A program made the translations under genes and the position numbers. Shown here one piece after another: positions 3,001-63,633 of a DNA stretch of 64,000 bases. Origin of the DNA: Gordius sp. MW1 (lineage: Eukaryota > Nematomorpha > Gordioida > Gordea > Gordiidae). The DNA is taken from the NCBI GenBank assembly GCA_964036665.1, contig OZ038530.1, positions 682,001 to 746,000 on the forward strand, read 5' to 3'. Under the pieces are notes generated by a model, which ran no database searches, was not told where the DNA came from, and saw only the letters and a program-made list of their open reading frames with translations. How positions within the stretch are numbered: position 1 is the stretch's first letter; each line of letters opens with the position of its first letter.

Positions 3001-4575
3001 CGTCTGATGTCCTTTTGTTGTCCGTCCGTTGTCCGTCCGTTGTCCGTTCGTTGTCCGTCCCTTGTCCGTCTGATGTCCTTTTGTTGTCCGTCCGTTGTCC
3101 GTTCGTTGTCCGTCCGTTGTCCGTTCGTTGTCCGTCTGATGTCCTTTTGTTGTCCTTCCGTTGTCCTTCCGTTGTCCGTCCGTTGTCCGTCTGATGTCCT
3201 TCCGTTGTCCTTCCGTTGTCCGTCCGTTGTCCGTCTGATGTCCTTTTGTTGTCCGTCCGTTGTCCGTCCGTTGTCCGTTCGTTGTCCGTCCCTTGTGCGT
3301 CTGATGTCCTTTTGTTGTCCGTCCGTTGTCCGTTCGTTGTCCGTTCGTTGTCCGTCTGATGTCCTTTTGTTGTCCGTCCGTTGTCCTTCCGTTGTCCTTC
3401 CGTTGTCCGTCCGTTGTCCTTCCGTTGTCCTTCCGTTGTCCTTTTGTTGTCCGTCCGTTGTCCGTCCGTTGTCCGTTCGTTGTCCGTCCCTTGTCCGTCT
3501 GATGTCCTTTTGTTGTCCTTCCGTTTTCCGTTCGTTGTCCGTCTGATGTCTTCCGTTGTCCGTCCGTTGTCCGCCCGTTGTCCTTCCGTTGTCCGTCCGT
3601 TGTCCGTCCGTTGTCCTTCCGTTGTCCGTCTGATGTCCTTCCGTTGTCCATCCGTTGTCCGTCCCTTGTCCGTCTGATGTCCTTCCGTTGTCCGTCCGTT
3701 GTCCGTCTGATGTCCTTCCGTTGTCCGTCCGTTGTCCGTCCCTTGTCCGTCTAATGTCCTTCCGTTGTCCGTCCGTTGTCCGTCCGTTGTCCTTCCGTTG
3801 TCCGTCCGTTGTCCGTCCGTTGTCTGTCCGTTGTCCGCCCATTGTCCGTCCGTTCTCCTTCCGTTGTCCGTCCGTTGTCCTTCCGTTGTCCGTCTGATGT
3901 CCTTTTGTTGTCCGTCCGTTGTCCGCCCGTTGTCCTTCCGTTGTCCGTTCTTTGTCCATCTGATGTCCTTTTGTTGTCCGTCCGTTGTCCGTTCGTTGTC
4001 CGTTCGTTGTCCGTTCGTTGTCCGTCTGATGTCCTTTTGTTGTCCTTCCGTTGTCCGTTCGTTGTCCGTCTGATGTCCTTCCGTTGTCCGTCCGTTGTCC
4101 GCCCGTTGTCCTTCCGTTGTCCTTCCGTTGTACTTCCGTTGTCCGTCTGATGTCCGCCCGTTGTCCTTCCGTTGTCCGTCCGTTGTCCGCCCGTTGTCCT
4201 TCCGTTGTCCTTCCGTTGTCCGTCCGTTGTCCTTCCGTTGTCCGTCCGTTGTCCGTTCGTTGTCCGTTCGTTGTCCGCCCGTTGTCCTTCCGTTGTCCTT
4301 CCGTTGTCCGTCCGTTGTCCTTCCGTTGTCCGTCCGTTGTCCGTCTGATGTCCTTTTGTTGTCCGTCCGTTGTCCGTCTGATGTCCTTTTGTTGTCCTTC
4401 CGTTGTCCGTCCGTTGTCCGTCTGATGTCCTTCCGTTGTCCATCCGTTGTCCGTCCCTTGTCCATCTGATGTCCTTCCGTTGTCCGTCCGTTGTCCGTCT
4501 GATGTCCTTCCGTTGTCCGTCCGTTGTCCGTCCCTTGTCCGTCTGATGTCCTTCCGTTGTCCGTCCGTTGTCCAT
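1..4575 (+). repeat. 11-bp satellite array, block A
   Basis: This is an uninterrupted tandem array of 11-bp monomers. The commonest is GTCCGTCCGTT. Other frequent variants are GTCCTTCCGTT, GTCCGTTCGTT, GTCCGCCCGTT, GTCCGTCTGAT, GTCCTTTTGTT, GTCTGTCCGTT, GTCCGTCCCTT and GTCCATCCGTT. Monomers 6-16, 17-27, 28-38 and onward can be counted off without a gap through at least the first 190 bases. One 10-bp monomer (GTCTTCCGTT) lies at 3548-3557. At 3752-3756 the usual TGATG is TAATG. The block recurs almost unchanged from 10,440. The plus strand contains very little A. No gene is seen; the open frames here come from the repeat. Confidence 0.97.
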
Positions 4576-5030
4576 CAGGAGGCTACAAGTTTGAATCCCG
4601 GAGAGTATTCTGTTCTTGTTAATAACATTGATAATATGACTTTTTAGCCGTCCGCTGAAATTTTCACGAAGCCTATATGGTTGAACAAAAAAATTTAAAA
4701 AATTTTCAAGTCGAAAAAATTTTTTTTGTCGGAATTCACCTCTGATATCGAAAATTTTCATGAGGCCTATATGGTGTTACAAAAAAATTGAAAAAATTTT
4801 GAGGTCGAAAAAAATATTTTTTGATAAAAAAATTTAATAAATTGCATAGCACGGAGGGACGACGGAGGGACGACAGAGGGACGACGGACGGACGACGGAG
4901 AGACGACGGAGGGAGGACGGACGGACAACGGAGGGACGACGGACCGTCCGTTGTCCGTCAGGAGGCAACAAGTTTGAATCCGTGAGAGTATTCTGTTGAT
5001 AATATGACTTTTTGGCCGTCCGCTGGCTAC
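4576..5030 (+). repeat. AT-rich linker L1 (type I, 455 bp)
   Basis: This segment interrupts the satellite. Its order is: module M1 (4576-4656, starting CAGGAGGCTACAAG); two copies of an A/T-rich repeat marked by GCCTATATGG at 4671 and 4765, 94 bp apart; an inverted satellite run at 4852-4944 with monomer CGGAGGGACGA; then module M2 (4959-5030, starting CAGGAGGCAACAAG). M1 and M2 are direct repeats that differ mainly by 15 extra bases in M1. No coding potential is credible. Function is unknown. The same segment recurs ten more times in the window. Confidence 0.93.
4852..4944 (-). repeat. Inverted satellite run inside L1
   Basis: About 8.5 monomers of CGGAGGGACGA type are present; the reverse complement is TCGTCCCTCCG. 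This is the satellite in the opposite orientation to every large block. The run ends at a near-palindromic joint: GACGACGGAC, one C at 4945, then GTCCGTTGTC, which can fold back with one mismatch. Equivalent runs lie at 8455-8547, 15291-15383, 31061-31153, 34037-34140, 35143-35246, 40107-40221, 44755-44880, 49416-49508, 56229-56321 and 63455-63547. Their lengths are 93, 104, 115 or 126 bp, differing by whole 11-bp units. Confidence 0.92.
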
Positions 5031-35332: not shown

Positions 35333-37118
35333 GTCCGTTGTCCGTCCGTTGTCCGCCCGTTGTCCGTCTGTTGTCCGTCCGTTGTCCGTCCGTTGTCCGT
35401 TCGTTGTCCGTTCGTTGTCCTTCCGTTGTCCTTCCGTTGTCCTTCCGTTGTCCGTCCGTTGTCCGTCTGATGTCCTTCCGTTGTCCGTCCGTTGTCCGTC
35501 CGTTGTCCGCCCGTTGTCCTTCCGTTGTCCGTCCGTTGTCCGTCCGTTGTCCGTCCGTTGTCCGTCCGTTGTCCTTCCGTTGTCCGTCAGATGTCCTTTT
35601 GTTGTCTGTCCGTTGTCCGTTCGTTGTCCGTTCGTTGTCCGTTCGTTGTCCGTCCGTTGTCCGCCCGTTGTCCGCCCGTTGTCCTTCCGTTGTCCGTCCG
35701 TTGTCCTTCCGTTGTCCGTCCGTTGTCCGTCCGTTGTCCGTTCGTTGTCCGTTCGTTGTCCGCCCGTTGTCCTTCCGTTGTCCTTCCGTTGTCCGTCCGT
35801 TGTCCTTCCGTTGTCCGTCCGTTGTCCGTCTGATGTCCTTTTGTTGTCCGTCCGTTGTCCGTCTGATGTCCTTTTGTTGTCCTTCCGTTGTCCGTCCGTT
35901 GTCCGTCTGATGTCCTTCCGTTGTCCATCCGTTGTCCGTCCCTTGTCCGTCTGATGTCCTTCCGTTGTCCGTCCGTTGTGCGCCCGTTGTCCGCCCGTTG
36001 TCCTTCCGTTGTCCGTCCGTTGTCCGTCTGATGTCCTTCCGTTGTCCGTCCGTTGTCCGTCCGTTGTCCGCCCGTTGTCCTTCCGTTGTCCGTCCGTTGT
36101 CCGTCCGTTGTCCGTCCGTTGTCCTTCCGTTGTCCGTCAGATGTCCTTTTGTTGTCTGTCCGTTGTCCGTTCGTTGTCCGTTCGTTGTTCGTTCGTTGTC
36201 CGTCCGTTGTCCGCCCGTTGTCCGCCCGTTGTCCTTCCGTTGTCCGTCCGTTGTCCTTCCGTTGTCCGTCCGTTGTCCGTCCGTTGTCCGTTCGTTGTCC
36301 GTTCGTTGTCCGCCCGTTGTCCGTCCGTTGTCCGTCCGTTGTCCGTTCGTTGTCCGTCCCTTGTCCGTCTGATGTCCTTTTGTTGTCCGTCCGTTGTCCG
36401 TTCGTTGTCCGTTCGTTGTCCGTTCGTTGTCCGTTCGTTGTCCTTTCGTTGTCCGTTCGTTGTCCGTCTGATGTCCTTTTGTTGTCCTTCCGTTGTCCGT
36501 CCGTTGTCCGTCTGATGTCCTTCCGTTGTCCGTCCGTTGTCCGCCCGTTGTCCTTCCGTTGTCCGCACGTTGTCCGCCCTATGTCTGTTGTCCGTCCGTT
36601 GTCCGTCCTTTGTCCGCCCGTTGTCCGTCCGTTGTCCGTCTGATGTCCTTTTGTTGTCCGCCCGTTGTCCGTCCGTTGTCCGTCCGTTGTCCGTTCGTTG
36701 TCCATCCGTTGTCCGTCTGATGTCCTTTTGTTGTCCGCCCGTTGTCCTTCCGTAGTCCGCCCGTTGTCCGTCCGTTGTCCTTCCGTTGTCCTTCCGTTGT
36801 CCGTTCGTTGTCCGTTCGTTGTCCGTCCGTTGTCCGGCCGTTGTCCGTTCGTTGTACGTCCGTTGTCCGTCTGATGTCCTTTTGTTGTCTGTCCGTTGTC
36901 CGTTCGTTGTCCGTTCGTTGTCCGTTCGTTTTCCGTTCGTTGTCCGTTCGTTGTCCGTCTGATGTCCTTTTGTTGTCCTTCCGTTGTCCGTCCGTTGTCC
37001 GTCTGATGTCCTTCCGTTGTCCGTCCGTTGTCCGCCCGTTGTCCTTCCGTTGTCCGCACGTTGTCCGCCCGTTGTATGTCCGTTGTCCGTCCGTTGTCCG
37101 TCCGTTGTCCGCCCGTTG
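35333..37118 (+). repeat. 11-bp satellite array, block G
   Basis: Plus-oriented satellite leading into the first hAT copy. Irregular monomers cluster here: GTCCGCCCTAT followed by a 7-bp GTCTGTT at 36,572-36,589, and GTCCGGCCGTT near 36,833. It ends in GTCCGCCCGTTG, directly against the CAGGG end of the element. No gene is seen. Confidence 0.96.
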
Positions 37119-37345
37119 CAGGGTTTCTTTCAGAGGGGAGCCCGGGGGGGTAATACCCCCCCCCGGGGAGTTTCAAATACCCCCCCGGAGAGTTTTGATT
37201 GAAGGAAGCATGAACATTAACTGAGGTTCCACCATGAAGTCATAAATTATATTAATAATAGGCTTAGGCTAAAATTGAAATTCAATAAATTATTTTAATT
37301 TGTCAATAAAAAATATAAAATTGGCGAAATTAAATTTTTTTACAG

Positions 37346-37551
37346 ATCAGGTGGAAATCATTCATAGACATCATTTTTTAACATCTGTGAACCGTAAATT
37401 TACAATCTTGAAAGTTACAAATTATCTTTAATATATCAATAGGTAACTAAACATAAATAAATGCTTTTAGAATTATTAAATCACTATCTTACTTATAAAC
37501 TTAAAAAGAATTATTATAAATAATACATTCTATGTTTTTTTTGAATTGCAG
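37346..37551 (+). other. Candidate 5' exon and 109-bp intron of the hAT gene, copy 1
   Basis: An acceptor-like TTTTTTTACAG ends at 37345. A donor-like AG|GTAACT sits at 37441-37448. A strong acceptor, TTTTTTTTGAATTGCAG, ends at 37551, four bases before the ATG at 37556. Read together these give a non-coding exon of about 97 bp (37346-37442) and a 109-bp intron (37443-37551). This is inference from splice consensus only. The same signals are in copies 2 to 5. Confidence 0.45.
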
Positions 37552-37555
37552 ATAG

Positions 37556-37792
37556 ATGTCTGGTAAATATAAAAGTACTCTTTTACACTACTTTAGTAAA
37601 AAGGAAAAGTCTAATAAAAAGGATGGTAAATATGATTTAATTTGGAATAATTTTAATTATGCAACAGGTGAAGATATGAATAATTGTTCTGTAGAAAAAA
37701 CTCTGGTTTGTTCCATTCAATGTTATAATGAAAAGGATGGTATTTATATTTATATTACTAACAAAATATTGGTCATTTTAAATGTATATTAA
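37556..37792 (+). pseudogene. hAT transposase N-terminal fragment, copy 1 (78 aa)
   Basis: This open frame starts at the first ATG after a strong splice acceptor and ends at a TAA after 78 codons. It begins MSGKYKSTLLHYFSKKEK and is rich in Lys, Asn and Tyr. A short basic start with a hydrophobic-FSKK patch is common in N-termini of hAT/ZMYM-like transposases, but that similarity is weak and from memory. No zinc-finger cysteine set and no RNase H-like catalytic motif follows; downstream sequence is AT-rich with stops in all frames. The frame is identical in copies 2 and 3. It is therefore best read as the surviving 5' end of a transposase gene whose middle is deleted. Whether a peptide is made is unknown. 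Confidence 0.6.
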
Positions 37793-38160
37793 CTAATTAT
37801 AATTTGCTTGCAAGCATATAAAAAAGATCTTTTTTGTCTAATCAATTATGTATTATGAAAAGGTGAGGATAATTCTGTGGAGAAACTGGTTTATTCCATA
37901 GATTGTCAAAATAAAAAAGATGGTATTTACATTTATACACACAAAATAATGTTTATAACTAATGATAATTATCTGTCATGCATTTAAATTCTGATATAGA
38001 TAAAATATCTTTTTTATCTATTTGATTTTGAATTAGAAATAGGCGAGAAGATATGTTTGGGGAATACTATGGGTATTTGTGTTTATATAAAATAATAAAT
38101 AAGGCATGAATATGTTTGTTTGTAATAGGTAAAGATGGGACTGAATTAAGAAAAACTCTT
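37667..38160 (+). repeat. Degenerate internal repeats within the hAT element, copy 1
   Basis: Four diverged segments begin with related motifs: AGGTGAAGAT (about 37666), AGGTGAGGAT (37861), AGGCGAGAAG (38041) and AGGTAAAGAT (38127). The first two align further: both run through TCTGT-GAAA-CTGGTTT-TTCC and a GATGGTATTTA tract. The fourth shares AAAAACTCTTGTTTTATCC with the first. Spacing is about 195, 180 and 86 bp. They look like old tandem duplications filling the place of the lost transposase core. Confidence 0.6.
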
Positions 38161-38351
38161 GTTTTATCCCTTACTTTAGTGCAATGAACCGAATTATGGT
38201 TGCATTAAGAAACAGGCTAGGGGAGATATCTTTAGACCACTGTATGAGAATATCTATAGAAGGGGCTGACCTTCCTACTGAAGAATATCTAGATATGGCG
38301 ATGAAGGAGTACGCCTTTAAAAAACAAAGAAGTATTCGGTTACTTTCTTAA
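38145..38351 (+). pseudogene. hAT transposase C-terminal dimerisation-domain fragment, copy 1
   Basis: The frame is open from a TGA at 38142 to TAA at 38349-38351; an internal ATG at 38184 would give 55 aa. The translation includes YFSAMNRIMVALRNRLG, then a stretch ending HCMRISIEG, an acidic segment and a Lys/Arg-rich tail. This matches the conserved C-terminal hAT dimerisation region (typical pattern FSAL-R-I...LR-R-L...L--L--I-I-G). The catalytic domain that should precede it is absent. It ends about 190 bp before the element end, as expected for a transposase C-terminus. It is a remnant without a credible start, so a functional protein is unlikely. Confidence 0.82.
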
Positions 38352-38545
38352 AAGAACACTTGCCCGTTAAAATATTACATGTATTTATTTAATGATTATG
38401 CGTGTATGTATCAATTTATATATCACTTATATCACCAATAAAAATTAGTAAATATTATACAAAATGGTTTAGCAATTAAAAAAATTTTTACCCCCCCGGA
38501 AGTTGAAAATACCCCCCCGGAGCATTTTTTCTGAAAGAAACCCTG

Positions 38546-39717
38546 GTCTGATGTCCTTTTGTTGTCCGTCCGTTCGTTGTCCGTTCGTTGTCCGTCTGAT
38601 GTCCTTTTGTTGTCCTTCCGTTGTCCGTTCGTTGTCCGTCTGATGTCCTTCCGTTGTCCGTCCGTTGTCCGCCCGTTGTCCTTCCGTTGTCCTTCCGTTG
38701 TCCGTCCGTTGTCCTTCCGTTGTCCGTCAGATGTCCTTTTGTTGTCTGTCCGTTGTCCGTTCGTTGTCCGTTCGTTGTCCTTCCGTTGTCCTTCCGTTGT
38801 CCGTCCGTTGTCCGTCCGTTGTCCTTCCGTTGTCCGTCTGATGTCCGTCCGTTGTCCTTCCGTTGTCCGTCCGTTGTCCGTCCGTTGTCCTTCCGTTGTC
38901 CGTCAGATGTCCTTTTGTTGTCTGTCCGTTGTCCGTTTGTTGTCCGTTCGTTGTCCGCCCGTTGTCCTTCCGTTGTCCTTCCGTTGTCCGTCCGTTGTCC
39001 GTCCGTTGTCCGTCCGTTGTCCTTCCGTTGTCCTTCCGTTGTCCTTCCGTTGTCCTTCCGTTGTCCTTCCGTTGTCCGTCTGATGTCATTTTGTTGTCCG
39101 TCCGTTGTCCGTCCGTTGTCCGTCCGTTGTCCGTTCGTTGTCCGTCCGTTGTCCGTCTGATGTCCTTTTGTTGTCTGTCCGTTGTCCGTTCGTTGTCCGT
39201 TCGTTGTCCGTTCGTTGTCCGTTCGTTGTCCGTTCGTTGTCCGTCTGATGTCCTTTTGTTGTCCTTCCGTTGTCCGTCCGTTGTCCGTCTGATGTCCGCC
39301 CGTTGTCCTTCCGTCGTCCGTCCGTTGTCCGCCCGTTGTCCTTCCGTTGTCCTTCCGTTGTCCGTCCGTTGTCCTTCCGTTGTCCGTCCGTTGTCCGTTC
39401 GTTGTCCGTTCGTTGTCCGCCCGTTGTCCTTCCGTTGTCCTTCCGTTGTCCGTCCGTTGTCCTTCCGTTGTCCGTCCGTTGTCCGTCTGATGTCCTTTTG
39501 TTGTCCGTCCGTTGTCCGTCTGATGTCCTTTTGTTGTCCTTCCGTTGTCCGTCCGTTGTCCGTCTGATGTCCTTCCGTTGTCCATCCGTTGTCCGTCCCT
39601 TGTCCATCTGATGTCCTTCCGTTGTCCGTCCGTTGTCCGTCTGATGTCCTTCCGTTGTCCGTCCGTTGTCCGTCCGTTGTCCGTCTGATGTCCTTCCGTT
39701 GTCCGTCCGTTGTCCAT
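38546..39717 (+). repeat. 11-bp satellite array, block H
   Basis: Plus-oriented satellite after hAT copy 1. The first seven bases are GTCTGAT rather than the GCCCGTT found after copies 2 and 3. An irregular 15-bp unit, GTCCGTCCGTTCGTT, lies at 38564-38578 and recurs at the same distance from the element in copies 2 (43179) and 3 (47873). No gene is seen. Confidence 0.96.
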
Positions 39718-40307: not shown

Positions 40308-41733
40308 GTCCGTTGTCCGTCCGTTGTCCGCCCGTTGTCCGTCTGTTGTCCGTCCGTTGTCCGTCCTTTGTCCGTTCGTTGTCCGTTCGTTGTCCTTCCG
40401 TTGTTCTTCCGTTGTCCTTCCGTTGTCCGTCCGTTGTCCGTCTGATGTCCTTCCGTTGTCCGTCCGTTGTCCGTCCGTTGTCCGCCCGTTGTCCTTCCGT
40501 TGTCCGTCCGTTGTCCTTCCGTTGTCCGTCCGTTGTCCTTCCGTTGTCCGTCCGTTGTCCTTCCGTTGTCCGTCCGTTGTCCGTCCGTTGTCCGTCTGAT
40601 GTCCTTTTGTTGTCCTTCCGTTGTCCGTCCGTTGTCCGTCTGATGTCCTTCCGTTGTCCATCCGTTGTCCGTCCCTTGTCCGTCTGATGTCCTTCCGTTG
40701 TCCGTCCGTTGTCCGTCCCTTGTCCGTCTGATGTCCTTCCGTTGTCCGTCCGTTGTCCGTCCGTTGTCCGCCCGTTGTCCTTCCGTTGTCCTTCCGTTGT
40801 CCGTCCGTTGTCCGTCTGATGTCCTTCCGTTGTCCGTCCGTTGTCCGTCCGTTGTCCGTCCGTTGTCCGTCCGTTGTCCTTCCGTTGTCCGTCCGTTGTC
40901 CTTCCGTTGTCCGTCCGTTGTCCGTCTGATGTCCTTTTGTTGTCCGTCCGTTGTCCGTCCGTTGTCCGTCCCTTGTCCGTCTGATGTCCTTTTGTTGTCC
41001 GTCCGTTGTCCGTTCGTTGTCCGTTCGTTGTCCGTTCGTTGTCCTTTCGTTGTCCGTTCGTTGTCCGTCTGATGTACTTTTGTTGTCCTTCCGTTGTCCG
41101 TCCGTTGTCCGTCTGATGTCCTTCCGTTGTCCGTCCGTTGTCCGCCCGTTGTATGTCCGTTGTCCGTCCGTTGTCCGTCCTTTGTCCGCCCGTTGTCCGT
41201 CCGTTGTCCGTCTGATGTCCTTTTGTTGTCCGCCCGTTGTCCGTCCGTTGTCCGTTCGTTGTCCGTCCGTTGTCCGTCTGATGTCCTTTTGTTGTCCGCC
41301 CGTTGTCCTTCAGTAGTCCGCCCGTTGTCCGTCCGTTGTCCTTCCCTGTCCTTCCGTGATCCGTTCGTTGTCCGTTCGTTGTCCGTCCGTTGTCCGTCCG
41401 TTGTCCGCCCGTTGTCCGTTCGTTGTACGTCCGTTGACCGTGTGATGTCCTTTTGTTGTCTGTCCGTTGTCCGTTCGTTGTCCGTTCGTTGTCCGTTCGT
41501 TGTCCGTTCGTTGTCCGTTCGTTGTCCGTTCGTTGTCCGTTCGTTGTCCGTCTGATGTCCTTTTGTTGTCCTTCCGTTGTCCGTCCGTTGTCCGTCTGAT
41601 GTCCTTCCGTTGTCCGTCCGTTGTCCGCCCGTTGTCCTTCCGTTGTCCGCACGTTGTCCGCCCGTTGTATGTCCGTTGTCCGTCCGTTGTCCGTCCGTTG
41701 TCCGTCCGTTGTCCGTCCGTTGTCCGCCCGTTG
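40308..41733 (+). repeat. 11-bp satellite array, block I
   Basis: Plus-oriented satellite between L7 and hAT copy 2. Irregular units near 41,340 (GTCCTTCCCTGTCC... CCGTGATCC) recur at the same place in block K. It ends in GTCCGCCCGTTG against the element. No gene is seen. Confidence 0.96.
41726..41733 (+). repeat. Target-site duplication GCCCGTTG, left of hAT copy 2
   Basis: The same 8 bases follow the element at 43161-43168. Deleting the element and one copy restores a perfect 11-bp register (GTCCGCCCGTT then GTCCGTCCGTT). The 8-bp backward jump in satellite phase therefore marks a true duplication and not a chance match within the repeat. Confidence 0.93.
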
Positions 41734-42170
41734 CAGGGTTTCTTTCAGGGGGGAGCCCGGGGGGGTAATACCTCCCCGTGGAGTTTCAAATACCCCCCCC
41801 CGGAGAGTTTTGATTGAAGGAAGCATGAACATGAACTGAGGTTCCACCATGAAGTCATAAATTATATTAATAATAGGCTTAGGCTAAAATTGAAATTCAA
41901 TAAATTATTTTAATTTGTCAATAAAAAATATAAAATTGGCGAAATTAAATTTTTTTACAGATCAGGTGGAAATTATTCATAGACATCATTTTTTAACATC
42001 TGTGAACCGTAAATTTACAATCTTGAAAGTTACAAATTATCTTTAATATATCAATAGGTAACTAAACATAAATAAATGCTTTTAGAATTATTAAATCACT
42101 ATCTTACTTATAAACTTAAAAAGAATTATTATAAATAATACATTCTATGTTTTTTTTGAATTGCAGATAG

Positions 42171-42407
42171 ATGTCTGGTAAATATAAAAGTACTCTTTTA
42201 CACTACTTTAGTAAAAAGGAAAAGTCTAATAAAAAGGATGGTAAATATGATTTAATTTGGAATAATTTTAATTATGCAACAGGTGAAGATATGAATAATT
42301 GTTCTGTAGAAAAAACTCTGGTTTGTTCCATTCAATGTTATAATGAAAAGGATGGTATTTATATTTATATTACTAACAAAATATTGGTCATTTTAAATGT
42401 ATATTAA
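42171..42407 (+). pseudogene. hAT transposase N-terminal fragment, copy 2 (78 aa)
   Basis: Same 78-codon frame as at 37556 with an identical translation. It sits 437 bp from the element start and directly behind the splice acceptor ending at 42166. The middle of the transposase is missing, so it is a fragment. Confidence 0.6.
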
Positions 42408-42759
42408 CTAATTATAATTTGCTTGCAAGCATATAAAAAAGATCTTTTTTGTCTAATCAATTATGTATTATGAAAAGGTGAGGATAATTCTGTGGAGAAA
42501 CTGGTTTATTCCATAGATTGTCAAAATAAAAAAGATGGTATTTACATTTATACACACAAAATAATGTTTATAACTAATGATAATTATCTGTCATGCATTT
42601 AAATTCTGATATAGATAAAATATCTTTTTTATCTATTTGATTTTGATTTAGAAATAGGCGAGAAGATATGTTTGGGGAATACTATGGGTATTTGTGTTTA
42701 TATAAAATAATAAATAAGGCATGAATATGTTTGTTTGTAATAGGTAAAGATGGGACTGA

Positions 42760-42966
42760 ATTAAGAAAAACTCTTGTTTTATCCCTTACTTTAGTGCAAT
42801 GAACCGAATTATGGTTGCATTAAGAAACAGGCTAGGGGAGATATCTTTAGACCACTGTATGAGAATATCTATAGAAGGGGCTGACCTTCCTACTGAAGAA
42901 TATCTAGATATGGCGATGAAGGAGTACGCCTTTAAAAAACAAAGAAGTATTCGGTTACTTTCTTAA
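42760..42966 (+). pseudogene. hAT C-terminal dimerisation-domain fragment, copy 2
   Basis: Same frame as 38145-38351 at +4,615 bp, with the internal ATG at 42799. The FSAMNRIM...LRNRLG and MRISIEG motifs are intact. No catalytic domain is linked to it. Confidence 0.82.
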
Positions 42967-43160
42967 AAGAACACTTGCCCGTTAAAATATTACATGTATT
43001 TATTTAATGATTATGCGTGTATGTATCAATTTATATATCACTTATATCACCAATAAAAATTAGTAAATATTATACAAAATGGTTTAGCAATTAAAAAAAT
43101 TTTTACCCCCCCGGAAGTTGAAAATACCCCCCCGGAGCATTTTTTCTGAAAGAAACCCTG

Positions 43161-43168
43161 GCCCGTTG
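43161..43168 (+). repeat. Target-site duplication GCCCGTTG, right of hAT copy 2
   Basis: Partner of 41726-41733. It is followed by TCCGTCCGTT, which resumes the normal satellite. Confidence 0.93.
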
Positions 43169-44365
43169 TCCGTCCGTTGTCCGTCCGTTCGTTGTCCGTT
43201 CGTTGTCCGTTCGTTGTCCGTCTGATGTCCTTTTGTTGTCCTTCCGTTGTCCGTTCGTTGTCCGTCTGATGTCCTTCCGTTGTCCGTCCGTTGTCCGCCC
43301 GTTGTCCTTCCGTTGTCCTTCCGTTGTCCGTCCGTTGTCCTTCCGTTGTCCGTCAGATGTCCTTTTGTTGTCTGTCCGTTGTCCGTTCGTTGTCCGTTCG
43401 TTGTCCTTCCGTTGTCCTTCCGTTGTCCGTCCGTTGTCCGTCCGTTGTCCTTCCGTTGTCCGTCTGATGTCCGTCCGTTGTCCTTCCGTTGTCCGTCCGT
43501 TGTCCGTCCGTTGTCCTTCCGTTGTCCGTCAGATGTCCTTTTGTTGTCTGTCCGTTGTCCGTTTGTTGTCCGTTCGTTGTCCGCCCGTTGTCCTTCCGTT
43601 GTCCTTCCGTTGTCCGTCCGTTGTCCGTCCGTTGTCCGTCCGTTGTCCTTCCGTTGTCCTTCCGTTGTCCTTCCGTTGTCCTTCCGTTGTCCGTCCGTTG
43701 TCCGTCTGATGTCATTTTGTTGTCCGTCCGTTGTCCGTCCGTTGTCCGTCCGTTGTCCGTTCGTTGTCCGTCCGTTGTCCGTCTGATGTCCTTTTGTTGT
43801 CTGTCCGTTGTCCGTTCGTTGTCCGTTCGTTGTCCGTTCGTTGTCCGTTCGTTGTCCGTTCGTTGTCCGTTCGTTGTCCGTCTGATGTCCTTTTGTTGTC
43901 CTTCCGTTGTCCGTCCGTTGTCCGTCTGATGTCCGCCCGTTGTCCTTCCGTCGTCCGTCCGTTGTCCGCCCGTTGTCCTTCCGTTGTCCTTCCGTTGTCC
44001 GTCCGTTGTCCTTCCGTTGTCCGTCCGTTGTCCGTCCGTTGTCCGTTCGTTGTCCGTTCGTTGTCCGCCCGTTGTCCTTCCGTTGTCCTTCCGTTGTCCG
44101 TCCGTTGTCCTTCCGTTGTCCGTCCGTTGTCCGTCTGATGTCCTTTTGTTGTCCGTCCGTTGTCCGTCTGATGTCCTTTTGTTGTCCTTCCGTTGTCCGT
44201 CCGTTGTCCGTCTGATGTCCTTCCGTTGTCCATCCGTTGTCCGTCCCTTGTCCATCTGATGTCCTTCCGTTGTCCGTCCGTTGTCCGTCTGATGTCCTTC
44301 CGTTGTCCGTCCGTTGTCCGTCCCTTGTCCGTCTGATGTCCTTCCGTTGTCCGTCCGTTGTCCAT
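43161..44365 (+). repeat. 11-bp satellite array, block J
   Basis: Plus-oriented satellite after hAT copy 2, starting with the right target duplication. The 15-bp irregular unit is at 43179-43193. Monomer order matches block H apart from single-monomer differences. It includes a rare CGTCGTCC joint near 43,950, also present in blocks H, M and O. No gene is seen. Confidence 0.96.
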
Positions 44366-44966: not shown

Positions 44967-46425
44967 GTCCGTTGTCCGTCCGTTGTCCGCCCGTTGTCCG
45001 TCTGTTGTCCGTCCGTTGTCCGTCCTTTGTCCGTTCGTTGTCCGTTCGTTGTCCTTCCGTTGTTCTTCCGTTGTCCTTCCGTTGTCCGTCCGTTGTCCGT
45101 CTGATGTCCTTCCGTTGTCCGTCCGTTGTCCGTCCGTTGTCCGCCCGTTGTCCTTCCGTTGTCCGTCCGTTGTCCTTCCGTTGTCCGTCCGTTGTCCTTC
45201 CGTTGTCCGTCCGTTGTCCTTCCGTTGTCCGTCCGTTGTCCTTCCGTTGTCCGTCCGTTGTCCGTCCGTTGTCCGTCTGATGTCCTTTTGTTGTCCTTCC
45301 GTTGTCCGTCCGTTGTCCGTCTGATGTCCTTCCGTTGTCCATCCGTTGTCCGTCCCTTGTCCGTCTGATGTCCTTCCGTTGTCCGTCCGTTGTCCGTCCC
45401 TTGTCCGTCTGATGTCCTTCCGTTGTCCGTCCGTTGTCCGTCCGTTGTCCGCCCGTTGTCCTTCCGTTGTCCGTCCCTTGTCCGTCCCTTGTCCGTCTGA
45501 TGTCCTTCCGTTGTCCGTCCGTTGTCCGTCCGTTGTCCGCCCGTTGTCCTTCCGTTGTCCTTCCGTTGTCCGTCCGTTGTCCGTCTGATGTCCTTCCGTT
45601 GTCCGTCCGTTGTCCGTCCGTTGTCCGTCCGTTGTCCGTCCGTTGTCCGTCCGTTGTCCTTCCGTTGTCCGTCCGTTGTCCTTCCGTTGTCCGTCCGTTG
45701 TCCGTCTGATGTCCTTTTGTTGTCCGTCCGTTGTCCGTCCGTTGTCCGTCCCTTGTCCGTCTGATGTCCTTTTGTTGTCCGTCCGTTGTCCGTTCGTTGT
45801 CCGTTCGTTGTCCGTTCGTTGTCCTTTCGTTGTCCACCCGTTGTATGTCCGTTGTCCGTCCGTTGTCCGTCCTTTGTCCGCCCGTTGTCCGTCCGTTGTC
45901 CGTCTGATGTCCTTTTGTTGTCCGCCCGTTGTCCGTCCGTTGTCCGTTCGTTGTCCGTCCGTTGTCCGTCTGATGTCCTTTTGTTGTCCGCCCGTTGTCC
46001 TTCCGTAGTCCGCCCGTTGTCCGTCCGTTGTCCTTCCCTGTCCTTCCGTGATCCGTTCGTTGTCCGTTCGTTGTCCGTCCGTTGTCCGTCCGTTGTCCGC
46101 CCGTTGTCCGTTCGTTGTACGTCCGTTGACCGTGTGATGTCCTTTTGTTGTCTGTCCGTTGTCCGTTCGTTGTCCGTTCGTTGTCCGTTCGTTGTCCGTT
46201 CGTTGTCCGTTCGTTGTCCGTTCGTTGTCCGTTCGTTGTCCGTCTGATGTCCTTTTGTTGTCCTTCCGTTGTCCGTCCGTTGTCCGTCTGATGTCCTTCC
46301 GTTGTCCGTCCGTTGTCCGCCCGTTGTCCTTCCGTTGTCCGCACGTTGTCCGCCCGTTGTATGTCCGTTGTCCGTCCGTTGTCCGTCCGTTGTCCGTCCG
46401 TTGTCCGTCCGTTGTCCGCCCGTTG
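44967..46425 (+). repeat. 11-bp satellite array, block K
   Basis: Plus-oriented satellite between L8 and hAT copy 3, in the same monomer order as block I with small whole-monomer differences. The target duplication half (46418-46425, GCCCGTTG) ends it. No gene is seen. Confidence 0.96.
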
Positions 46426-47854: not shown

Positions 47855-49026
47855 GCCCGTTGTCCGTCCGTTGTCCGTCCGTTCGTTGTCCGTTCGTTGT
47901 CCGTTCGTTGTCCGTCTGATGTCCTTTTGTTGTCCTTCCGTTGTCCGTTCGTTGTCCGTCTGATGTCCTTCCGTTGTCCGTCCGTTGTCCGCCCGTTGTC
48001 CTTCCGTTGTCCTTCCGTTGTCCGTCCGTTGTCCTTCCGTTGTCCGTCAGATGTCCTTTTGTTGTCTGTCCGTTGTCCGTTCGTTGTCCGTTCGTTGTCC
48101 TTCCGTTGTCCTTCCGTTGTCCGTCCGTTGTCCGTCCGTTGTCCTTCCGTTGTCCGTCTGATGTCCGTCCGTTGTCCTTCCGTTGTCCGTCCGTTGTCCG
48201 TCCGTTGTCCTTCCGTTGTCCGTCAGATGTCCTTTTGTTGTCTGTCCGTTGTCCGTTTGTTGTCCGTTCGTTGTCCGCCCGTTGTCCTTCCGTTGTCCTT
48301 CCGTTGTCCGTCCGTTGTCCGTCCGTTGTCCGTCCGTTGTCCGTCCGTTGTCCTTCCGTTGTCCTTCCGTTGTCCTTCCGTTGTCCTTCCGTTGTCCGTC
48401 CGTTGTCCGTCTGATGTCATTTTGTTGTCCGTCCGTTGTCCGTCCGTTGTCCGTCCGTTGTCCGTTCGTTGTCCGTCCGTTGTCCGTCTGATGTCCTTTT
48501 GTTGTCTGTCCGTTGTCCGTTCGTTGTCCGTTCGTTGTCCGTTCGTTGTCCGTCTGATGTCCTTTTGTTGTCCTTCCGTTGTCCGTCCGTTGTCCGTCTG
48601 ATGTCCGCCCGTTGTCCTTCCGTCGTCCGTCCGTTGTCCGCCCGTTGTCCTTCCGTTGTCCTTCCGTTGTCCGTCCGTTGTCCTTCCGTTGTCCGTCCGT
48701 TGTCCGTTCGTTGTCCGTTCGTTGTCCGCCCGTTGTCCTTCCGTTGTCCTTCCGTTGTCCGTCCGTTGTCCTTCCGTTGTCCGTCCGTTGTCCGTCTGAT
48801 GTCCTTTTGTTGTCCGTCCGTTGTCCGTCTGATGTCCTTTTGTTGTCCTTCCGTTGTCCGTCCGTTGTCCGTCTGATGTCCTTCCGTTGTCCATCCGTTG
48901 TCCGTCCCTTGTCCATCTGATGTCCTTCCGTTGTCCGTCCGTTGTCCGTCTGATGTCCTTCCGTTGTCCGTCCGTTGTCCGTCCCTTGTCCGTCTGATGT
49001 CCTTCCGTTGTCCGTCCGTTGTCCAT
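47855..49026 (+). repeat. 11-bp satellite array, block M
   Basis: Plus-oriented satellite after hAT copy 3. It begins with the right target duplication and has the 15-bp unit at 47873-47887. From about 47,890 it is the template for 54,690-55,839. No gene is seen. Confidence 0.96.
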
Positions 49027-50987: not shown

Positions 50988-51425
50988 CAGGGTTTCTTTC
51001 AGGGGGGAGCCCGGGGGGGTAATACCTCCCCGGGGAGTTTCAAATACCCCCCCCCCCCCGGAGAGTTTTGATTGAAGGAAGCATGAACATGAACTGAGGT
51101 TCCACCATGAAGTCATAAATTATATTAATAATAGGCTTAGGCTAAAATTGAAATTCAATAAATTATTTTAATTTGTCAATAAAAAATATAAAATTGGCGA
51201 AATTAAATTTTTTTACAGATCAGGTGGAAATTATTCATAGACATCATTTTTTAACATCTGTGAACCGTAAATTTACAATCTTGAAAGTTACAAATTATCT
51301 TTAATATATCAATAGGTAACTAAACATAAATAAATGCTTTTAGAATTATTAAATCACTATCTTACTTATAAACTTAAAAAGAATTATTATAAATAATACA
51401 TTCTATGTTTTTTTTGAATTGCAGA
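50988..51425 (+). mobile_element. hAT element, copy 4, 3'-truncated (438 bp)
   Basis: The left TIR, subterminal motifs (C-tract of 13) and intron-like 5' region are kept. The sequence stops at TTGCAGA (51425), one base past the splice acceptor, and continues as satellite (CGTCTGATGTCC). The N-terminal ATG, C-terminal fragment and right TIR are gone, so it cannot be mobilised alone. Copy 5 has the same breakpoint. Confidence 0.9.
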
Positions 51426-54400: not shown

Positions 54401-55839
54401 GTTGTCCTTCCGTTGTCCGTCCGTTGTCCGTTTGATGTCCTTTTGTTGTCCGTCCGTTGTCCGTCCGTTGTCCTTGCGTTGTCCTTCCGTTGTCCGCCCG
54501 TTGTCCGTTCGTTGTCCGTCCGTTGTCCTTTCGTTGTCCGCCCGTTGTCCGTCCGTTGTCCGTCCGTTGTCCGTCCGTTGTCCGTCCGTTGTCCGTCTGA
54601 TGTCCTTCCGTTGTCCGTCCGTTGTCCGCCCGTTGTATGTCCGTTGTCCGTCCGTTGTCCGTCCTTTGTCCGCCCGTTGTCCGTTCGTTGTCCGTCTGAT
54701 GTCCTTTTGTTGTCCTTCCGTTGTCCGTTCGTTGTCCGTCTGATGTCCTTCCGTTGTCCGTCCGTTGTCCGCCCGTTGTCCTTCCGTTGTCCTTCCGTTG
54801 TCCGTCCGTTGTCCTTCCGTTGTCCGTCAGATGTCCTTTTGTTGTCTGTCCGTTGTCCGTTCGTTGTCCGTTCGTTGTCCTTCCGTTGTCCTTCCGTTGT
54901 CCGTCCGTTGTCCGTCCGTTGTCCTTCCGTTGTCCGTCTGATGTCCGTCCGTTGTCCTTCCGTTGTCCGTCCGTTGTCCGTCCGTTGTCCTTCCGTTGTC
55001 CGTCAGATGTCCTTTTGTTGTCTGTCCGTTGTCCGTTTGTTGTCCGTTCGTTGTCCGCCCGTTGTCCTTCCGTTGTCCTTCCGTTGTCCGTCCGTTGTCC
55101 GTCCGTTGTCCGTCCGTTGTCCGTCCGTTGTCCTTCCGTTGTCCTTCCGTTGTCCTTCCGTTGTCCTTCCGTTGTCCGTCCGTTGTCCGTCTGATGTCAT
55201 TTTGTTGTCCGTCCGTTGTCCGTCCGTTGTCCGTCCGTTGTCCGTCCGTTGTCCGTTCGTTGTCCGTCCGTTGTCCGTCTGATGTCCTTTTGTTGTCTGT
55301 CCGTTGTCCGTTCGTTGTCCGTTCGTTGTCCGTTCGTTGTCCGTTCGTTGTCCGTTCGTTGTCCGTCTGATGTCCTTTTGTTGTCCTTCCGTTGTCCGTC
55401 CGTTGTCCGTCTGATGTCCGCCCGTTGTCCTTCCGTCGTCCGTCCGTTGTCCGCCCGTTGTCCTTCCGTTGTCCTTCCGTTGTCCGTCCGTTGTCCTTCC
55501 GTTGTCCGTCCGTTGTCCGTTCGTTGTCCGTTCGTTGTCCGCCCGTTGTCCTTCCGTTGTCCTTCCGTTGTCCGTCCGTTGTCCTTCCGTTGTCCGTCCG
55601 TTGTCCGTCTGATGTCCTTTTGTTGTCCGTCCGTTGTCCGTCTGATGTCCTTTTGTTGTCCTTCCGTTGTCCGTCCGTTGTCCGTCTGATGTCCTTCCGT
55701 TGTCCATCCGTTGTCCGTCCCTTGTCCATCTGATGTCCTTCCGTTGTCCGTCCGTTGTCCGTCTGATGTCCTTCCGTTGTCCGTCCGTTGTCCGTCCCTT
55801 GTCCGTCTGATGTCCTTCCGTTGTCCGTCCGTTGTCCAT
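51426..55839 (+). repeat. 11-bp satellite array, block O
   Basis: Plus-oriented satellite. About 3.3 kb (51,426 to about 54,690) stands where the 3' two-thirds of the hAT element would be. The rest matches 47,890-49,026. Two unusual substitutions (GTGCTTCCGTT near 51,850 and GTTCGGTTTCC near 52,331) recur in block Q. No gene is seen. Confidence 0.96.
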
Positions 55840-57745: not shown

Positions 57746-58182
57746 CAGGGTTTCTTTCAGGGGGGAGCCCGGGGGGGTAATACCTCCCCGGGGAGTTTCA
57801 AATACCCCCCCCCCCCGGAGAGTTTTGATTGAAGGAAGCATGAACATGAACTGAGGTTCCACCATGAAGTCATAAATTATATTAATAATAGGCTTAGGCT
57901 AAAATTGAAATTCAATAAATTATTTTAATTTGTCAATAAAAAATATAAAATTGGCGAAATTAAATTTTTTTACAGATCAGGTGGAAATTATTCATAGACA
58001 TCATTTTTTAACATCTGTGAACCGTAAATTTACAATCTTGAAAGTTACAAATTATCTTTAATATATCAATAGGTAACTAAACATAAATAAATGCTTTTAG
58101 AATTATTAAATCACTATCTTACTTATAAACTTAAAAAGAATTATTATAAATAATACATTCTATGTTTTTTTTGAATTGCAGA
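57746..58182 (+). mobile_element. hAT element, copy 5, 3'-truncated (437 bp)
   Basis: Same content and same breakpoint as copy 4 (TTGCAGA then CGTCTGATG), at +6,758 bp. The C-tract is 12 long. The shared breakpoint shows that one deletion event was amplified. Confidence 0.9.
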
Positions 58183-63065: not shown

Positions 63066-63633
63066 CAGGAGGCTACAAGTTTGAATCCCGGAGAGTATTC
63101 TGTTCTTGTTAATAACATTGATAATATGACTTTTTAGCCGTCCGCTGAAATTTTCACGAAGCCTATATGGTTGAACAAAAAAATTTAAAAAATTTTCAAG
63201 TCGAAAAAATTTTTTTTTTCGGAATTCACCTCTGATATCGAAAATTTTCATGAGGCCTATATGGTGTTACAAAAAAATTGAAAAAATTTTGAGGTCGAAA
63301 AAATATTTTCTGATCAAAAAAATTTTTTTTACGGAATTCACTTCTGATATCAAAAATTTTCATGAGGCCTATATGGTTGAACAAAAAAATGGAAAAAAAT
63401 TTGAGGTCGAAAAAAATATTTTTTGATAAAAAAAATTTAATAAATTGCATAGCACGGAGGGACGACGGAGGGACGACGGACGGACGACGGACGGACGACG
63501 GAGAGACGACGGAGGGAGGACGGACGGACAACGGAGGGACGACGGACCGTCCGTTGTCCGTCAGGAGGCAACAAGTTTGAATCCGTGAGAGTATTCTGTT
63601 GATAATATGACTTTTTGGCCGTCCGCTGGCTAC
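63066..63633 (+). repeat. AT-rich linker L11 (type II, 568 bp)
   Basis: As L9 and L10: M1, three A/T repeats, inverted satellite run (63455-63547) and M2. Confidence 0.92.

Follow-up and report, generated by a model that had tools for sequence, protein, structure and literature searches.

A single non-autonomous hAT element was very probably inserted into an already existing 11-bp satellite, with duplication of the 8-mer GCCCGTTG, and was subsequently amplified together with the satellite. Satellites with short units are hard to read as history, because their units look alike. In the present array, the order of satellite, element and amplification is settled by a unique 1.4-kb tag and its clean 8-bp duplication; the tag also provides informative sites for following copies within and between the arrays, which are located on three contigs. 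The analysis was based on a stretch of 64,000 nucleotides (hereafter, the window), representing bases 682001–746000 of contig C4 in a 211.8-Mb genome of 12 contigs. The following features of the window, all on the forward strand, are referred to below:

4–63063 (+): 11-bp satellite with the main unit GTCCGTCCGTT, host of the element, interrupted in places
37119–38545 (+): element copy 1, with GCCCGTTG on the left (37111–37118) and the 8-mer GTCTGATG on the right (38546–38553), phase unchanged
41726–41733 (+): left target-site duplication GCCCGTTG of copy 2
41734–43160 (+): hAT element copy 2, 1427 bp, with the inverted ends CAGGGTTTCTTTCAG
42171–42407 (+): remnant of the N-terminal end of the transposase, 64 of 76 amino acids identical to the longer copy L023
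42760–42966 (+): remnant of the C-terminal end of the transposase, 55 of 58 amino acids identical to L023
43161–43168 (+): right target-site duplication GCCCGTTG of copy 2
43190–43193 (+): CGTT, a further break of the register by 4 bp, located 29 bp beyond the right end of copy 2 and missing in L053/L078, L079 and L080
46426–47854 (+): copy 3, with GCCCGTTG on both sides (46418–46425 and 47855–47862)
50988–51425 (+): copy 4, ending at element position 434, without right end and right duplication
57746–58182 (+): copy 5, with the same cut at position 434 and without right end

The ends of copy 2 are perfect inverted repeats of 15 bp, and their motif was found eight times in the window, always exactly, compared to 0.03 occurrences expected when up to two mismatches were allowed. 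The middle of the transposase gene is missing from the element, while its two protein ends are kept. A longer copy of the family (L023, 4545 bp) encodes the domains DUF4371 (2.2e-10) and Dimer_Tnp_hAT (PF05699, 2.4e-06, above the Pfam cut-off). Judged by its sequence, the window element is a non-autonomous hAT element, namely one derived by internal deletion from a longer member of its family. The hAT assignment made in the sequence-only reading was borne out by the 8-bp duplications, also found outside the array, the CAGGG-like inverted ends, and the dimerisation domain, the latter residing in L023. The length of 8 bp alone is not unique to hAT elements and is the point in favor of another superfamily generating duplications of this size. 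The probability of such an origin is next to nil, given the dimerisation domain above the cut-off in L023 and the CAGGG ends, which are also present in the hAT elements Buster1 and Tip100.

Non-autonomous Buster1 elements, e.g., Buster1_NA1_HM, possess the ends CAGGGTTTCTTAAACT (PMC4298943). As in the window element, their ends begin with CAGGGTTTCTT and short non-autonomous copies occur beside longer ones, whereas the final bases of the ends differ; the comparison refers to end motifs only. The satellite setting belongs to the window element, and none is described for Buster1 in the accessible part of PMC4298943. Similarly, the plant hAT element Tip100, featuring the ends CAGGGGCGGAG and 8-bp duplications, the latter being a hAT signature (PMC12511174), shares the CAGGG start and the duplication length with the window element; however, it originates from a plant and its ends, being the only parts compared, diverge after CAGGG. 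A search of PDB sequences with the DUF4371 piece yielded weak matches only (E of 0.16 and 0.18). Within the long copy L011, a different hAT dimerisation domain was detected on the reverse strand (855–1217, 6.5e-26), and a second hAT element is apparently nested in the first one. Furthermore, L023 contains open frames at 3115–4082 (+), two pieces of which were scanned and had no Pfam match; these frames may be part of another inserted repeat.

The evidence for the insertion itself comes from the junctions and from the register of the satellite. The sequence-only reading had placed GCCCGTTG before CAGGG and after CCCTG in copies 2 and 3, where it was indeed present, and had described a phase step of 8 bp across the element. 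This step was found in copies 1 to 3, with unit-to-unit distances of 1446, 1446, and 1448 bp, each being the sum of the element length, 11 and 8. Removal of the element and one 8-mer had also been proposed to restore the 11-bp register, which was confirmed in part: in the window copies, the register is restored for the next 21 bp only. In copies 1 to 3, the register breaks a second time, by +4 bp (CGTT), at a distance of 29 bp to the right of the element. Because of this break, the near units fit after removal but those farther to the right do not, all 39 counted far-right units being 4 bp out in each of these copies. In a chance control, cut points were drawn at random in the satellite: 3.4% of the draws gave an exact 8-mer repeat, a share that fell to 0.9% with GCCCGTTG as the left 8-mer. 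The match at the junction alone is therefore suggestive. The duplication of GCCCGTTG is made firm by the family-wide and long-range evidence described below.

Genome-wide, the end motif occurs 721 times (346 forward and 375 reverse). The flanks of family members outside the satellite, proposed as a check in the sequence-only reading, were inspected for 25 two-ended copies, whose facing ends are separated by less than 7 kb; these were chosen by eye among 100 listed motif places and are all located on C1 and C2. An exact 8-bp duplication was present in 19 of these 25 copies and a duplication with one mismatch in three (L019, L024, and L044); the remaining three (L016, L018, and L026) had none, L016 showing a 5-bp match in its place. 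Two copies, L009 and L010, have one flank in common, so that the sample represents 24 independent sites.

The long-range evidence was obtained for copy L053 on C9, of which L078 is a longer read. This copy carries GCCCGTTG on both sides and is free of the 4-bp break. Once the element and one 8-mer are taken out of L078, 58 of 58 counted units on the left and 59 of 59 on the right are in one phase. The tested units of L079 (20 left and 27 right) and L080 (15 and 13), both also on C9, likewise fall into one phase after removal, so the predicted restoration of the register holds throughout the tested units of these three copies. Furthermore, L053 carries the base of the outgroup (L028) at 10 of 10 comparable diagnostic sites. 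It is also basal in a tree of the first 34 array copies rooted with L028, with weak support at this position (48–59); L079 and L080 are outside this tree. The single phase of L078 and the outgroup bases of L053 are best explained if the clean 8-bp duplication, in perfect register with the satellite, was the starting condition. The CGTT break, GTCTGATG junctions, steps of 12 and truncated copies would then represent later changes.

The opposite order, in which the element came first, the satellite grew on both of its sides and the 8-bp match arose by chance or slippage, could draw on the 3.4% of random cut points giving an exact repeat. It is extremely improbable in view of the family-wide 8-bp duplications and the single register on both sides of L078. 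It is also at odds with the distribution of the satellite on C4: satellite-like units were present in all 15 sampled 10-kb stretches (base 1 to 836000), 14 of which had no element match. That the satellite is older than the element, as claimed from the window, is supported by the register of L078 and by the 19 exact duplications outside the array.

An exact orthologous empty site was not found: a 67-bp pattern linking the two flanks of L053 via a single GCCCGTTG had no match in the genome, nor did the equivalent pattern for the window lineage, which included the CGTT break. A shorter joined-flank pattern of 47 bp matched twice (C4:1159118 and C9:15757), in both cases with an element copy following a few hundred bases downstream. 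In the window, an element-free stretch of satellite at about 54.6–54.7 kb (54600–54720, string FPAaF-DCEBDC) resembles the two flanks of the element fused without any loss of register. This stretch was dropped as proof of an empty site, its left part being closer to another upstream paralog, and it may have resulted from loss by recombination instead of representing an ancestral empty site.

To count the copies within the satellite, left ends located within 12 bases of a satellite unit were scanned genome-wide; the unit had to begin with GTCCG, so that insertions next to GTCCT units would be missed. In total, 109 satellite-embedded left ends were found. The 100 listed among them are all placed at one satellite position and are distributed over three contigs: 69 on C4 (389,860–1,448,692), five on C8, a contig of 37.43 Mb whose final 32 kb contain them all, and 26 on the 1.37-Mb contig C9. 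At 98 of these 100 listed left junctions, CAGGG is preceded by TTGTCCGCCCGTTG, the other two differing in the last base. The scan for right ends, with a pattern that misses the type represented by L049 and L072, yielded 101 matches. Among the 100 listed, 77 distinct ends remained after double rows had been collapsed, all of them in the +8 phase; 36 carry GCCCGTTG and 41 carry GTCTGATG.

A common position could also have been reached by recurrent targeting, that is, by family members entering one satellite unit separately and many times. The size of the family, with its 721 end motifs, and the identical unit position of all 100 listed left ends are compatible with this explanation, which is nevertheless considered highly improbable. 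The 26 full-ended copies among the first 34 array copies share one internal structure, with a mean identity of 99.6% and a minimum of 99.2%, and this structure was found in none of the 25 outside copies. Similarly, the string of unit variants on the left, hFP-A(1-8)-F, is common to 35 of the 36 array copies read, L073 showing one altered unit. No other phase occurred among the 100 listed left ends, all adjacent to GTCCG. In the reverse orientation, a scan that also required a GTCCG unit beside the end, and would therefore miss insertions next to GTCCT, gave 38 matches: 37 represent right ends belonging to the insertion already described, and the remaining match is located on C6. A single insertion appears to be the source of the satellite copies.

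Transposons within satellites, as well as compound satellite units with transposon parts, are already known (PMC8091179). In Cuscuta europaea, the satellite CUS-TR24 harbors insertions of L1-CS LINE elements, for which recurrent targeted insertion was favored; amplification of a compound unit was weighed and set aside for CUS-TR24, and other compound monomers, e.g., Sobo, were cited (PMC8091179). As in the window array, the transposons occupy preferred satellite positions and the target duplication appears as a shift in satellite coordinates; in contrast to CUS-TR24, however, one insertion amplified as a compound unit fits better here. Element and satellite recur in a fixed order and with high identity, as in a compound satellite unit. 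The present case clearly exemplifies a process that is already known. Beyond the sequence-only reading, the analysis adds a single founder, an apparently ancestral copy in perfect register, and the later decay of the duplication.

This decay was followed in 36 array copies, comprising the five copies of the window, L049, 28 hand-chosen copies (L050–L077), L079, and L080. On the right side, GCCCGTTG was present in 12 copies, GTCTGATG in 14, and a step of 12 in two (L049 and L072), while eight were devoid of the end motif. Only 12 of the 36 copies keep GCCCGTTG on both sides, illustrating how a diagnostic duplication can be replaced or lost within a satellite. The CGTT break was present in 23 of the 28 full-ended array copies and absent from L053, L079, L080, L049, and L072. 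In the latter two, both located on C4 at about 590–602 kb, the right flank opens with a whole unit, giving a step of 12 rather than 8. A small later indel beside the element is the simplest reading of this step; the window copies arrive at the same net value of 12 by 8 + 4. Among the eight copies without right end motif, six are cut at element position 434 and two near position 1401. The cut at 434 (window positions 51425 and 58182, L050, L057, L063, and L068) adjoins the splice-acceptor-like sequence TTTTTTTTGAATTGCAG and is probably one deletion that was later copied to C4, C8, and C9.

The three main classes of right junctions (GCCCGTTG, GTCTGATG, and the cut at 434) were each found on C4, C8, and C9. 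Moreover, all four combinations of variants occur at ten pairs of variable sites, and the GTCTGATG junction is shared by three distinct haplotypes of the element. These patterns point to recombination or conversion between array copies, although some of the sites are close to G or C runs, where alignment or recurrent change could mimic it. In the region G000:C4:931551-975091, three spacings between left ends measure exactly 3637 bp, pointing to a recent duplication of the composite unit.

In the proposed history, the 11-bp satellite would already have been in place when an internal-deletion hAT derivative inserted once into a GTCCGCCCGTT unit, its transposase presumably being supplied by another copy. 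The junctions and the register show that this event created the 8-bp duplication GCCCGTTG. Subsequently, the satellite segment carrying the element was amplified, often with 3.6–6.8 kb between successive copies, and, as the copy pattern shows, is now present on three contigs: C4, close to its start, C8, close to its end, and C9. Recombination within and between arrays is the probable mechanism. In the course of this, the right duplication or the right end disappeared from some copies, and others no longer keep the exact register, as seen in the copies read. The sequence-only reading is supported with regard to element type, mechanism, and order of events. The points standing against the proposed history are the restriction of GCCCGTTG on both sides to 12 of 36 copies, the 4-bp break in 23 of 28, the root support of 48–59, the missing exact empty site, and the three of 25 outside copies devoid of an 8-bp duplication. 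It is conceivable, but rather unlikely, that the insertion, as a unique sequence in a monotonous 11-bp array, aided recombination between contigs and thereby its own amplification to more than 100 copies. If so, the variants of the element could act as natural barcodes that reveal exchange between the ends of non-homologous chromosomes.

Concerning the satellite itself, a literature search for the 11-bp sequence returned one match only, which was unrelated. No report of the satellite or of the hAT insertion was found in the literature searched, which does not prove that none exists. The satellite of the window also contains a composite module in 11 copies (e.g., 4581–5026 and 63071–63629). It consists of two direct copies of a sequence beginning CAGGAGGC(T/A)ACAAGTTTGAATCC, arranged around an AT-rich sequence and a short reverse-oriented satellite tract. 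The AT-rich part forms a tandem array of 112-bp units in five modules from position 39701 on and is shorter in the other six. Rfam matches obtained in the 112-bp module were dismissed, their scores being far below gathering. A strand switch of the satellite array was observed in L034 (C4:756001–766000), and also between L048 and L040.
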